From: Acidobacteria bacterium Mor1
GTDB taxonomy: Bacteria > Acidobacteriota > Polarisedimenticolia > Polarisedimenticolales > Polarisedimenticolaceae
Direction of reading: 5' to 3'
Assembly: GCA_001664505.1 (NCBI GenBank)
Contig: CP011806.1
Coordinates: 5,146,831-5,201,670, forward strand
Length of the DNA: 54,840 nt
Both the position numbers and the translations under genes were made by a program. Positions 8,004-24,882 of the stretch are shown piece by piece. Position 1 is the stretch's first letter. Each line of letters begins with the position of its first letter. The notes beneath the pieces were generated by a model, which did no database searches, was not told the origin of the DNA, and saw nothing but the letters and a program-made list of their open reading frames with translations.

Positions 8004-9032
8004 CTAGTCGCCGAACCTGATCTTGGCAGTGTTCCAGCGGGTCTCGGACATGTCGTCGCCACGCAGCTCGCGCAGGGCGTAGCCGACGAAGGACTGAGCC
8101 ACCCGCTTGCGCCAGTGGAGCACGAAGTCGGTGTTGTCCATCGGCTTGGCCTTGCGGCCCGCCTTCTCGGCAGCCTCCTCGATCACGCCGTCGGTCAGTT
8201 CCTTGCCGACCAGCATCTCGGCGGCTTCGCTCACCACGATCGGCGACGAGGCGACGGCACCCAGCACGATCCGGGCGTCGGCGACGCCGCCACCGGCGTC
8301 GAACTTGACCGCAGCGGCCACGCCCAGCACCGGGAAATCGAAGGAGCCGCGGCGGCGCAGCTTCCAGTAGGTGCTCTTCCAGCCGGTGGCGTCGGGAAGC
8401 TCGACCCGGGTCAACAGTTCGTGCGGACGGCGGGTCAGGTACGAGATGCCGTCGTTGTTGTAGAGCTCTTCGAGAGACAGCTCCCGCGACTCCCGGGCGG
8501 CCAGCAGGTGGACCTTGGCGCCCAGGGCGATCAGCGCCGGGGCGGTGTCGGTGGAGGAGACGGCGAGGCAGCGCTTGCTCGCCGGGGCGACCCAGCAGGT
8601 CTCCCCTTCCTTCTTCATGCAGAAGTTGATCGATTTGCGCCACTCGTAGTTCTGGTCGTAGTAGTTGCAGCGGGTGTCCAGGCAGATGTTGCCTCCGAGG
8701 GTCGCCATGTTGCGCAGGTGGGGGGAGGCGACCTGGACCGCCGCCTGATGCAGTGCACCGTAGTGCTCGCGCACCCGGGGATCCTCGCCGATCTCGGTCA
8801 ACGTCAGGCCCGCGCCCAGGCGCAGGCCGGTGCCGTTCTGCGATTCCCGCAAGGCGGCCACGCCCTTGAGGCCGACCACGGTCTTCGGCGTCTGCTGGCG
8901 CCGTTTCATGTTGGGAAGCAGGTCGGTGCCGCCGGCGACGACCATGGCGTCGGGGCCTTCGGATGCCAGCACCTCGGCGACTTCTTGGGTAGTCGTCGGC
9001 GCCAGGTAGCGGAAACGGGGTAGTCGCATCAT
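8004..9032 (-). CDS. Molybdenum hydroxylase FAD-binding subunit, 4-hydroxybenzoyl-CoA reductase beta-like, with [4Fe-4S] insertion
   Basis: 342 residues. FAD-binding motifs are VVAGGTDLLP (about 31-40) and TLGGNICLD (about 111-119), followed by the CO-dehydrogenase-flavoprotein C-terminal domain. Between them lies a roughly 40-residue insertion with cysteines at 122, 138, 146 and 155 (counting from the first Met). Spacing is 16, 8 and 9 residues, which as I recall is the cluster-ligand pattern of the 4-hydroxybenzoyl-CoA reductase beta subunit and is not found in ordinary xanthine dehydrogenases. It would carry electrons between FAD and the [2Fe-2S] clusters of the partner encoded at 11482-11985. 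ATG at 9032 overlaps the upstream TGA (ATGA), indicating translational coupling. The enzyme is expected in the cytoplasm. The exact substrate is unproven. Confidence 0.9.
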   Translation of the reverse strand: MMRLPRFRYLAPTTTQEVAEVLASEGPDAMVVAGGTDLLPNMKRRQQTPKTVVGLKGVAALRESQNGTGLRLGAGLTLTEIGEDPRVREHYGALHQAAVQVASPHLRNMATLGGNICLDTRCNYYDQNYEWRKSINFCMKKEGETCWVAPASKRCLAVSSTDTAPALIALGAKVHLLAARESRELSLEELYNNDGISYLTRRPHELLTRVELPDATGWKSTYWKLRRRGSFDFPVLGVAAAVKFDAGGGVADARIVLGAVASSPIVVSEAAEMLVGKELTDGVIEEAAEKAGRKAKPMDNTDFVLHWRKRVAQSFVGYALRELRGDDMSETRWNTAKIRFGD

Positions 9033-22092: not shown

Positions 22093-22608
22093 TCAGTGGC
22101 TGTCGCCGGCCGCCGCGGCCTGCATCTTCTTCTGCAGTTCGATGTAGGTGGCGTAGTCGATGAAGTCCCGCTGGTGCACGATCCGATCCGAGGCCACCTC
22201 GTACCAGCTGGTCGCCGGCAGGACGTACTCGAGGTCGGGGCAGGAGTCACTGCCGATCGCCGCGCCCAGCACCTTGCCGTTGAGTTTGCCCACGTAGTCG
22301 TATTCGACGACCACCAGGTTCTCGTGGACCATCCGGCGCTTTTCCTCGATGCGCATCTCGTGGTGGGCGCCGGCCAGCCGGGCCAGCATGCCGTGAAGCG
22401 CCTCGCTGCCGGCGACCTCGTGGCGCTGGTTCACATCCTCGAACACCGCCTCGTCATCGTAGATCGCCAGCATGCCTTCGACCGAGCGGGCGTTGTAGGC
22501 CTCGTAGAGACGGTCGACGGCGCGGTCCGGGGAGCCTGCCAGGGCGGGCAGAGCCATGGCCAGAACGAGGGCCGCTAGCGCCATCTTGTTGATTCGGTTG
22601 AGTTTCAT
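22093..22608 (-). CDS. Exported SnoaL-like/NTF2-fold protein
   Basis: 171 residues with a signal peptide (MNK-type core MALAALVLAMALPALAG; GGAGG eight bases before the ATG). The mature part is a single NTF2-like cone: AVDRLYEAYNARSVEGMLAIY, VFEDVNQRHEVAGSEAL, VVVEYDYVGKLNGKVLG and RIVHQRDFIDYATY, typical of SnoaL/ketosteroid-isomerase-like polyketide or stress-associated proteins. No catalytic residue can be assigned from sequence alone. It is divergent to an MmyB-type regulator, with three AGGTAAT half-sites between them, so it is the most likely regulated target. Confidence 0.8.
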   Translation of the reverse strand: MKLNRINKMALAALVLAMALPALAGSPDRAVDRLYEAYNARSVEGMLAIYDDEAVFEDVNQRHEVAGSEALHGMLARLAGAHHEMRIEEKRRMVHENLVVVEYDYVGKLNGKVLGAAIGSDSCPDLEYVLPATSWYEVASDRIVHQRDFIDYATYIELQKKMQAAAAGDSH

Positions 22609-22679
22609 CGTGATTGCCTCCAGGGTGCCGGCCCCAGCGACGTGCTGTGGGGCGGATTCCGAGGTATGTTGCCCTTGAT

Positions 22680-22710
22680 AGGTAATGTCGGCAATTACCT
22701 CTGAGGTAAT
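22680..22710. promoter_or_regulatory. Candidate operator of the MmyB-type regulator: three AGGTAAT half-sites
   Basis: AGGTAAT occurs at 22680-22686 and 22704-22710 on the plus strand and inverted at 22694-22700, in the divergent intergenic region 22609-22712. The first pair forms a 7-7-7 dyad, and the third copy ends three bases before the regulator's start codon. Confidence 0.65.
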
Positions 22711-22712
22711 CC

Positions 22713-23531
22713 TTGGTGCTACTCGGCAGGCCGTTCGGCGAGCAACTCAAGAGCTGGCGCTCCGCCCGCGGACTCAGCCAGTTGGACCTGGGCCTCCACG
22801 CCCGGGTCTCGGCTCGGCATATCTCCTTTCTCGAGACCGGCAGGGCGCAGCCCAGCCGGGAGATGGTGGTCCGTCTGGCCCGCGCCCTCGACCTGCCTCT
22901 CCGCGAACGGAACACCCTGCTCGAACAGGCGGGCTTCGCTCCGCTCTACGGGGAGCGTCCTCTCGACGATGCGGCCCTCGGCTCGGCGCTCGATGCTCTC
23001 GGTTTTCTGTTGAGGGCTCACGATCCGAACCCCGCGATCGTGCTGGATCGCTACTGGACCGTGTTGCGCTGGAACCGGTCCCACGAGCGACTGGTGGCTG
23101 CGCTTGTGGCGGGGGAGAGCGCTCCCCAGGGGAACGCCCTCGACTGGGTCTTCGAACCGGGGCCGGTGCGCGAGCGGATCGTCAACTGGAGCGAGGTCGC
23201 CGGCGCGGTCTTGACCCGCTTGCGCCGCCAGGTACAGCGGGCCGCCACCGACGAACGTTTGCGGCAGGTCTGGGATCGCGTGCTCGCTGCTCCCGGTGTT
23301 GCCGAACTGGCCGCACGAAACCCCCTTGCCGACCCGCAGATCCTGGTACCGCTGCGGCTACGCATCGGCGGCGAGGAGTACGCGTGGGTCAACACCCTCG
23401 CTGTCTTCGGTGCGGCCGGCGAGGCGACGCTGGAAGACCTGGTCGTCGAGACCTTCTTTCCCGCGGATGAGCCGACCCGCCGTTTCATGAAGCAGCTATC
23501 CGGCGACGGCGAGATCCCGCCGCCCGCCTAG
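22713..23531 (+). CDS. XRE-family transcriptional regulator with MmyB-like ligand-binding domain
   Basis: 272 residues from TTG at 22713; the adjacent in-frame GTG at 22716 is an equally good start. The N-terminal helix-turn-helix is at about 8-65 (LKSWRSARGLSQLDLGLHARVSARHISFLETGRAQPSREMVVRLA). The C-terminal domain (about 105-262) has the MmyB PAS-like pattern (AIVLDRYWTVLRWNRSHERLV ... WVNTLAVFGAAGEATLEDLVVETFFPAD). MmyB-type proteins are reported to bind fatty-acid-like ligands and often control a single adjacent gene. AGGTAAT half-sites overlap the start region, indicating autoregulation and control of the divergent SnoaL-like gene. No ribosome-binding site is visible. Confidence 0.88.
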   Translation: MVLLGRPFGEQLKSWRSARGLSQLDLGLHARVSARHISFLETGRAQPSREMVVRLARALDLPLRERNTLLEQAGFAPLYGERPLDDAALGSALDALGFLLRAHDPNPAIVLDRYWTVLRWNRSHERLVAALVAGESAPQGNALDWVFEPGPVRERIVNWSEVAGAVLTRLRRQVQRAATDERLRQVWDRVLAAPGVAELAARNPLADPQILVPLRLRIGGEEYAWVNTLAVFGAAGEATLEDLVVETFFPADEPTRRFMKQLSGDGEIPPPA

Positions 23532-23556
23532 CCGGCCGGTGCGGGGGCGGCCGGCT
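23530..23556. terminator. Bidirectional hairpin terminator
   Basis: Perfect 9-bp arms AGCCGGCCG (23530-23538) and CGGCCGGCT (23548-23556) with a nine-base loop span the gap between convergent stops. There is no T-tract. Confidence 0.65.
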
Positions 23557-24698
23557 CAGTCGGAAAGTACACCGTACTCAGCGATCTCCTCGGAGGTCAT
23601 CCAGTGAATGCCGTCGGCCGGCGCCGCTTCGAGGGTGAACCAGTAGAACCGGTCGGGGATGCCCACGCTGCGGTAGTAGGCGAGGTACTTGGCGTGCTCC
23701 GGATGGTCCCGGGGAAGATCGGCGCCTTCCTCATCGAGCCCGGCCCAGGAATGGACGCCGAGGCGTGCACCGGTACCGACGGTCCGCCGCACTCCGGCGA
23801 GGAAGAAGTCGGTGCCTCCTGAAGCGACCTCGCCATCGCCGGGAATGTGGGTGTCGTATCCGAGCCGGCGGACCATCGCGGCGGCACGAAGCATCGATTC
23901 GTCGTCCATCGATCCGGGTACCGTCCGCATCACGATGGTCTCGACGGCGGGATGCTCGAGGGCCAGCTCCAGCACCCGCCCCGGGGTCGAGGCGCCGATC
24001 ACCCCGGTCATCTCGGCCAGGGTCCCGTCGACTTCGAAGGTCGCGCCGGCGAGCTCCTCGGCGACCATCTCCAGTAGCTCGGCGCGGGTGACCTTGCCGT
24101 CGGCGTTTCGGTCGAACCGTTCGAACTCCGGCCGGAACGCTTCACGGTGGCGGCGGGGGACATCGCTCAGCGAGAACGTGCCGTCGCCGTCTCCGTCGAA
24201 TTCCTGCAGCAGCGAGAGCAATTCCGCCTCGAACATCGCCTTCGGATCATCGAGATGAGGCGCTTCGAGGACCTCGGCGAGACTGACCTGTCCGTCCCCG
24301 TCGGCATCGAGGCCGGTGATCAGCGGAGCCAGTTCCTCGGGAATCTCCCGCGGACCGAGCCGCTGGTCGTCATTGCGGTCGAGCTCGCCGAACATCTCGG
24401 TCCGCTCAGCCAGCTCCTCTTCGCTCATTCCTCGGAGGTAGCCCTCGAGTTCCGAGCGTTGGAGCGCCCCGTCGGCGTCAGCATCCGCTTCGCCCGCCAG
24501 CAGCAGGATCGCCTCGGCGGCTTCGTGGGGTTGCCACTTGCCGTCCCGGTCGCGATCGAGGAAGCGCCACAGGTCGTCAAGGGTCGTCGGAGCGGAGGAG
24601 GTGGAGCCGGAGCCGGTTGCCGCGGTGGCCGAGAAGAGCAGCAAGAAGAACAAAAACGCCGAGGCCACGCCGGCCAGGCGTGTGGTGGAGCCGTGCAT
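23556..24698 (-). CDS. Exported protein with six EF-hand loops fused to a ClpP-like (COG3904-type) domain
   Basis: 380 residues from the ATG at 24698 (AAGGTG six bases upstream; an in-frame GTG at 24707 is weaker). The signal segment is AGVASAFLFFLLLFSATAATG. Residues about 45-215 hold six 12-residue EF-hand loops: DRDRDGKWQPHE, DADADGALQRSE, DRNDDQRLGPRE, DADGDGQVSLAE, DGDGDGTFSLSD and DRNADGKVTRAE. Residues about 222-380 resemble the periplasmic ClpP/crotonase-fold family COG3904: TGVIGASTPGRVLELALEHP, IVMRTVPGS, LGYDTHIPGDGEVASGGTDFF, GVRRTVGTGARLGVHSW. The usual SxC/serine in the ASSC position reads ASGG, so catalysis is uncertain. Calcium probably regulates or stabilises it (inference). 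Confidence 0.8.
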   Translation of the reverse strand: MHGSTTRLAGVASAFLFFLLLFSATAATGSGSTSSAPTTLDDLWRFLDRDRDGKWQPHEAAEAILLLAGEADADADGALQRSELEGYLRGMSEEELAERTEMFGELDRNDDQRLGPREIPEELAPLITGLDADGDGQVSLAEVLEAPHLDDPKAMFEAELLSLLQEFDGDGDGTFSLSDVPRRHREAFRPEFERFDRNADGKVTRAELLEMVAEELAGATFEVDGTLAEMTGVIGASTPGRVLELALEHPAVETIVMRTVPGSMDDESMLRAAAMVRRLGYDTHIPGDGEVASGGTDFFLAGVRRTVGTGARLGVHSWAGLDEEGADLPRDHPEHAKYLAYYRSVGIPDRFYWFTLEAAPADGIHWMTSEEIAEYGVLSD

Positions 24699-24882
24699 CG
24701 AAATCACCTTTTGGGGAGTCGCGTCCGGCGGTCCGGAGGCGAAGACGTCGCGGTTCGTCGGGCGGTGGCGTCGAATGGCCCCGCGGCTCCGCCGAGCGCT
24801 CGTGGGACGAGGCTACCCCAGTTGAGGTTCCGGCGGCAAGCCCGCCGCTTTCAAGGGTGTAGAGTTTTGGAAGGAGGAATCC

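Follow-up and report, generated by a model that had tools for sequence, protein, structure and literature searches.

In the window, i.e., the whole stretch of 54,840 nucleotides that was analysed, two genes diverge from a gap of 104 bases (22609-22712). On the plus strand, at 22713-23531, lies a regulator gene that starts with TTG at 22713 or with GTG at 22716. The N-terminus of the encoded protein is an XRE helix-turn-helix (HTH_31, 1.8e-12; HTH_3, 7.2e-10), the C-terminus matches MLTR_LBD with 6.8e-28 and 98.3 bits (cut-off 26.3), and the protein is the only MLTR_LBD match of the genome. On the minus strand, at 22093-22608, lies a SnoaL-like gene, the presumed target, which encodes a SnoaL_2 domain (6.2e-14, 52.9 bits, cut-off 27). 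The N-terminus of the SnoaL-like protein resembles a signal peptide by eye, and the Shine-Dalgarno sequence GGAGG of the gene was read from the sequence at 22617-22621 (minus strand). Directly downstream of the regulator gene, and convergent with it, a gene for an EF-hand-rich protein is found (23556-24707, minus strand).

The gap contains the heptamer AGGTAAT three times within 31 bases, i.e., the half-sites S1 at 22680-22686 (plus strand), S2 at 22694-22700 (minus strand) and S3 at 22704-22710 (plus strand), and the window has no further copy. A preliminary description of this DNA had reported the three copies, the length of the gap and an inverted pair formed by S1 and S2, with 7-base arms and a 7-base spacer, all of which were confirmed; in a genome scan the pair occurred a single time. 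It had overlooked that S2 and S3 together make up a perfect palindrome of 17 bp, ATTACCTC-T-GAGGTAAT (22694-22710), whose 8-bp arms flank a single central base and which is the candidate main operator. S2 is common to the palindrome and the outer pair, S3 is the right half of the palindrome, and S1 is an extra copy 7 bases away from it. The centres of S2 and S3 are 10 bp apart, and this two-fold symmetric arrangement matches the spacing of about 10 bp that is expected for an MmyB/MltR-like operator. The third copy is indeed close to the regulator start, as had been stated, but the number of bases between them is two (TTG) or five (GTG) and not three, and the repeat does not explain most of the gap, as the 31-base stretch makes up 31 of its 104 bases.

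The window alone makes a modest case and is no proof of a site; the proof is carried by the comparative data. When the window was shuffled, a triple cluster of some 7-mer within 31 bases was present in 54 of 200 sequences, and three AGGTAAT copies anywhere in 5 of 100. With arms of 8 bp and a spacer of 0-3 bases, 16 palindromes were listed for the window (some of them nested), versus a mean of 8.86 and a maximum of 17 after shuffling. The window has a second triple cluster, of the 7-mer CGACGCC at 8274-8301, which is GC-rich like many of the clusters made by shuffling. In the genome of 5,985,000 bases the palindrome is the sole match at up to two mismatches. Six other genomic places have three mismatches, versus about 20 expected in random sequence of even composition, and a regulon beyond the locus of the window was rejected.

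When four aligned regulators served as the query of a scan, at least 586 loci were confirmed, the best 80 of which were used. These best 80 are mostly from Bradyrhizobium and other Alphaproteobacteria, and they also include Betaproteobacteria, Actinomycetota, Acidobacteriota, one Thermomicrobiaceae bin and a few others. Together with seven plasmid loci and five loci from a search of 60 genomes they gave 92 rows; one contig is counted twice (L005 and L106), and L002 is the window itself. Among these listed matches, the palindrome was found with at least 12 of 16 positions and at most 300 bp upstream of the regulator match at 80 of the 92 loci. The control windows, of which 21 of 1362 had it, were drawn from the same loci and may contain some true sites. 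At seven of the other 12 listed loci it lies further upstream with 13-15 of 16 positions, a score that 0 of 50 shuffles reached in each case, which brings the total among the matches listed to 87 of 92. Annotated same-strand genes lie between palindrome and regulator at L114-L117, and open reading frames at L075 and L097; the intervening frame of L099 was judged from its likeness to L097. No palindrome was found at five of the 92 listed loci (L072, L073, L076, L079 and L104), of which L073 and L079 offered just 887 and 265 upstream bases, respectively. L079 is the sole Thermomicrobiaceae locus among the matches listed, and no claim is made for its phylum. The region of the recognition helix is almost invariant across 41 homologues, which fits a single shared operator. 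The claim that the repeat contains the operator of the adjacent MmyB/MltR-type regulator appears right in substance, given the conservation of the palindrome upstream of distant homologues. Judged from these comparisons, the site and its local control by the regulator are well supported, and the regulator very probably binds the palindrome.

Searches that started from the DNA gave a similar picture. The exact palindrome was present in 12 of 685 genomes, in ten of them beside a regulator gene that is intact or cut by a contig end. Within the phylum it was present in seven of 396 genomes, and in six of the seven, the window's own counted, a homologue of the regulator is no more than 1.5 kb away; the seventh copy (L124) falls within the 3' end of a frame that is CHAT-like by eye. 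The class to which the Caulobacter of L066 belongs had it in five of 289 genomes, where the regulator was found over most of its length (three), cut by a contig end (one) or as a remnant (one). At the alphaproteobacterial locus L145 (about 1256-1517) the exact palindrome adjoins a C-terminal MLTR_LBD remnant and may be an orphan operator or belong to a decayed gene. In two phylum genomes (L122, 1501-2792, and L123) the exact palindrome is about 500 bases before the regulator, and the two are separated by an NTF2/SnoaL-like reading frame at L122. When up to two mismatches were allowed, 14 of 16 homologue genomes or records had a match, versus four for a reversed control pattern. The 16 loci from this search (L126-L141) have a regulator within 1.5 kb in 11 cases and further on at L127, and none was seen at L138-L141. 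At one of these, L138 (1501-1517; G396, a Bradyrhizobium), a palindrome with one mismatch had no regulator within 1.5 kb in a tblastn search with the window's regulator, and it is a possible distant target.

For the analysis of promoter architecture, near-duplicates among the matches listed were thinned from 80 to 52 loci, and 49 were left after removal of the window's family. An in-frame start codon was found 33-37 bases past the palindrome at 45 of these 49 listed loci, while the other 5-base bins (3 to 62) contained 0-5. The motif TAnnnT started at +30 to +32 from the palindrome centre, again at 45 of the 49 listed loci, and other offsets (18-45) had 0 or 1. The layout predicted elsewhere from these spacings is that of a leaderless regulator transcript, the operator having its centre at about -43. 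Over the 52 listed loci the palindrome is extended by C at -10 (88%) and G at +10 (92%). A second palindrome about 22-25 bp further upstream was rejected as a general feature, as it reached at least 10 of 16 positions at four of the 49 listed loci (offsets -25, -23 and -22). At the -35 place of the regulator promoters, TTG was present at three of the 49 listed loci. The seven listed loci with the palindrome before a non-regulator gene, which include two pairs of close relatives, had TTG in six cases and NAnnnT at +31 in five. Two further loci with the palindrome before another gene (L122 and L123) have TTGCGA and GATAGT. The Mycobacterium locus L091, which has a divergent SnoaL gene, showed no NAnnnT at an offset of the +31 type.

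Next, the layout within the window's bacterial family was compared. In a search of 60 genomes, one of which is that of the window, regulator matches with E < 1e-80 were found in three only (G000, G003 and G004), and a SnoaL homologue in exactly the same three, adjacent and divergent in each. Two further genomes (G048 and G053) have more distant full-length regulators without such a SnoaL match. Of six genomes of the window's family that were searched, three have a full-length regulator, two have weak helix-turn-helix matches only, and one has none. That the SnoaL-like gene is the likely target, as had been proposed, agrees with the co-occurrence of both genes in the same three of 60 genomes and with the uniqueness of the site in the genome. 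The triple half-site layout with the divergent SnoaL gene is kept in G003 and G004, the regulators of which are 54% and 57% identical, respectively, to that of the window. Three-way identity was 6 of 7 positions for S1 and 15 of 17 for the palindrome, compared with 3 of 7 for the intervening spacer and 6 of 23 for the stretch further upstream; for S1 and the shifted layout, the basis is these three related genomes. In the family, 2 to 6 bases separate the end of the palindrome from the regulator start. The sequence GAGG at 22703-22706 (plus strand), within the palindrome, is by its position the probable Shine-Dalgarno sequence of the regulator, and its overlap with the palindrome is repeated at L003 and L004.

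Toward the SnoaL gene, the three genomes have TTGCCG, TTGTTA and TTGATT, respectively, followed after 17 bases by CAACAT, GAAACT and GACATT. In the window these are the putative -35 TTGCCG (22689-22694, minus strand) and the putative -10 CAACAT (22666-22671, minus strand), with a predicted transcription start at about 22659. TTG at this -35 place and NAnnnT at the offset known from other loci are present in all three family genomes, and the NAnnnT spans +31 to +36, which is the commonest -10 offset elsewhere. This pattern was spotted first and counted afterwards. Two results speak against it: a scan of 22500-22900 with the sigma-70 consensus gave no promoter at threshold, and L091 has no NAnnnT at this offset despite its divergent SnoaL gene. 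S1 lies inside the 17-base spacer of the putative promoter.

With six of 80 mechanically called neighbouring reading frames, several of which may not be genes, SnoaL_2 was the commonest neighbour family among the matches listed. The six belong to the three family genomes and to L075, L091 and L115 (the last under the curated cut-off). L114 also has a SnoaL_2 neighbour, which was missed by the gene caller, and L122 has one weakly, under the cut-off. Beyond the SnoaL families, every neighbour family had at most three of the 80 in the matches listed; other partners are carboxymuconolactone decarboxylase-like (L117 and L132) and DUF2834 (L130). The order at L130 (1501-2410) is a palindrome with one mismatch, a seemingly leaderless DUF2834 gene (ATG at +43), a SnoaL-like gene and the regulator. 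SnoaL is a recurrent partner, not a general one.

These results suggest the following mechanism. A dimer of the XRE-type regulator with its MltR-like ligand-binding domain would bind 22694-22710, one subunit per half, and the palindrome would be its autoregulatory operator. Binding as a dimer is proposed because of the symmetry and the conservation of the palindrome and because, according to the MltR structure paper, the MltR recognition helices are 34 A apart, i.e., about 10 bp (PMC3406030). From the palindrome centre to the predicted SnoaL start the distance is about 43 bp, and the relatives seem to regulate promoters of their own from such a position. Loaded with its ligand, the bound regulator would most likely activate the SnoaL gene from about -43. 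At the same time the palindrome covers the 5' end of the regulator gene and its probable Shine-Dalgarno sequence, and binding would lower the synthesis of the regulator itself. S1 contains TAATGT, a possible -10 of the regulator, and at a high regulator level S1 may also be occupied, inside the SnoaL promoter spacer, and both promoters may be shut. As a whole, an autoregulatory operator with activation of SnoaL and self-limitation via S1 is the best explanation that the sequence comparisons offer, and it is slightly favoured. For the part that comprises SnoaL activation and self-limitation via S1 and the regulator's own leader, the chances appear about evenly balanced.

The direction of control is the point at which a tentative alternative has to be weighed. 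The regulator could be a ligand-released repressor, which, bound at the palindrome and at S1, would keep both SnoaL and its own gene off until an inducer, perhaps a SnoaL substrate, frees it. Repression is favoured because the palindrome edge, together with S1, overlaps the -35 and the spacer of the putative SnoaL promoter, and because another XRE regulator with a divergent gene, MsrR, is a repressor of itself and of the neighbouring genes (PMC7532634). The TTG at the -35 place, seen at six of the seven listed loci with the palindrome before another gene, points in the same direction; against it, this TTG is rare at the listed regulator promoters. Activation is favoured because of the fixed spacing between palindrome and promoter and because of the precedent of MmyB, which is termed an activator in PMC3406030. 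The narrow spacing of the palindrome to the -10 at regulator promoters argues for activation, although overlap with the -35 could also yield it.

The preliminary description had taken the outer pair S1-S2, with its 7-base spacer, as the main dimer site, in which case S3 would be accessory. Its arms of 7 bp are perfect and unique in the genome, and the spacing is retained in the three family genomes. However, the part conserved at distant homologues is the S2-S3 palindrome, which is general, whereas S1 is at this place (at least 6 of 7 positions) in one of the 49 other dereplicated loci among the matches listed, and a centre spacing of 14 bp is unlike the approximately 10 bp reported for the MltR dimer (PMC3406030). 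The outer pair is very unlikely to be the main site. Even lower is the probability of an RNA switch in the regulator leader, in which S2 would pair either with S1, freeing the Shine-Dalgarno sequence in S3, or with S3, hiding it. S2 is complementary to both, and the GAGG in S3 is positioned as a Shine-Dalgarno sequence, but the four stretches that were folded gave structures no better than those of shuffled sequence (z -0.39, 0.59, 0.90 and 0.33), one S1-S2 pair is lost at L004 with no compensating change, and the palindrome is also conserved at loci at which the predicted transcript starts downstream of it. A chance repeat without function, which the triple 7-mer clusters in shuffled sequence would allow, has a negligible probability in view of the conservation and the regulator adjacency in distant genomes.

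A broader proposal is judged equally likely to hold or to fail. A single operator code, CGATTACCTCnGAGGTAAT[GC]G, would be recognised by a near-invariant helix throughout a whole branch of MmyB/MltR-like regulators in Proteobacteria, Actinomycetota and Acidobacteriota, mostly at leaderless autoregulatory promoters with the operator at -43. In the window's family the operator would have moved, so that one half would double as the ribosome-binding site of the regulator, the palindrome would drive SnoaL at the ancestral spacing, and the third half-site would act as a limiter. An XRE regulator with a palindromic autoregulatory operator is of an ordinary kind; in searches of open-licence PMC text by motif string and by topic, the specific code and its placement were not found reported, and no description of the motif was seen among the papers listed. 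In a family that has a crystal structure, the targets of many uncharacterised members could be predicted from a sequence-readable motif whose distance to the promoter is fixed, and the 31-bp stretch offers a defined probe for a ligand search. As a guess, the recurring SnoaL-like partner points to a ligand that is a small hydrophobic molecule or a ring compound.

Among known systems, CI of phage lambda at OR2/PRM is an XRE-fold dimer that binds near -42, activates and autoregulates. Its likeness to the window regulator is an analogy only, as activation is here suggested by the spacing. MltR from Chloroflexus aurantiacus (Caur_2278, 3pxp) has, like the window regulator, a helix-turn-helix followed by MLTR_LBD, and for it a two-fold operator with about 10 bp between the recognition helices was predicted, according to PMC3406030. 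The relationship is only distant (profile match to 3pxp, 2.1e-6). In the MltR crystal a fatty acid was modelled, and its carboxylate is bound by Asn176, Tyr227 and Tyr258 according to the same paper (PMC3406030); the label 'lipid-sensing' of the preliminary description rests on this fatty acid. The profile alignment to 3pxp stops at chain residue 219, before Tyr227 and Tyr258. The accessible text of PMC3406030 gives no operator sequence for any MmyB/MltR-like member. MmyB from Streptomyces coelicolor resembles the proposed system in its suggested pseudo-palindromic B-boxes and in the activation of its targets; its target genes differ from that of the window, and it is about 20% identical to MltR (PMC3406030). 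MsrR from Corynebacterium glutamicum is likewise of the XRE family and has an autoregulatory site that is common to a divergent neighbour, and it differs in being a repressor with a thiol switch, as described in PMC7532634.
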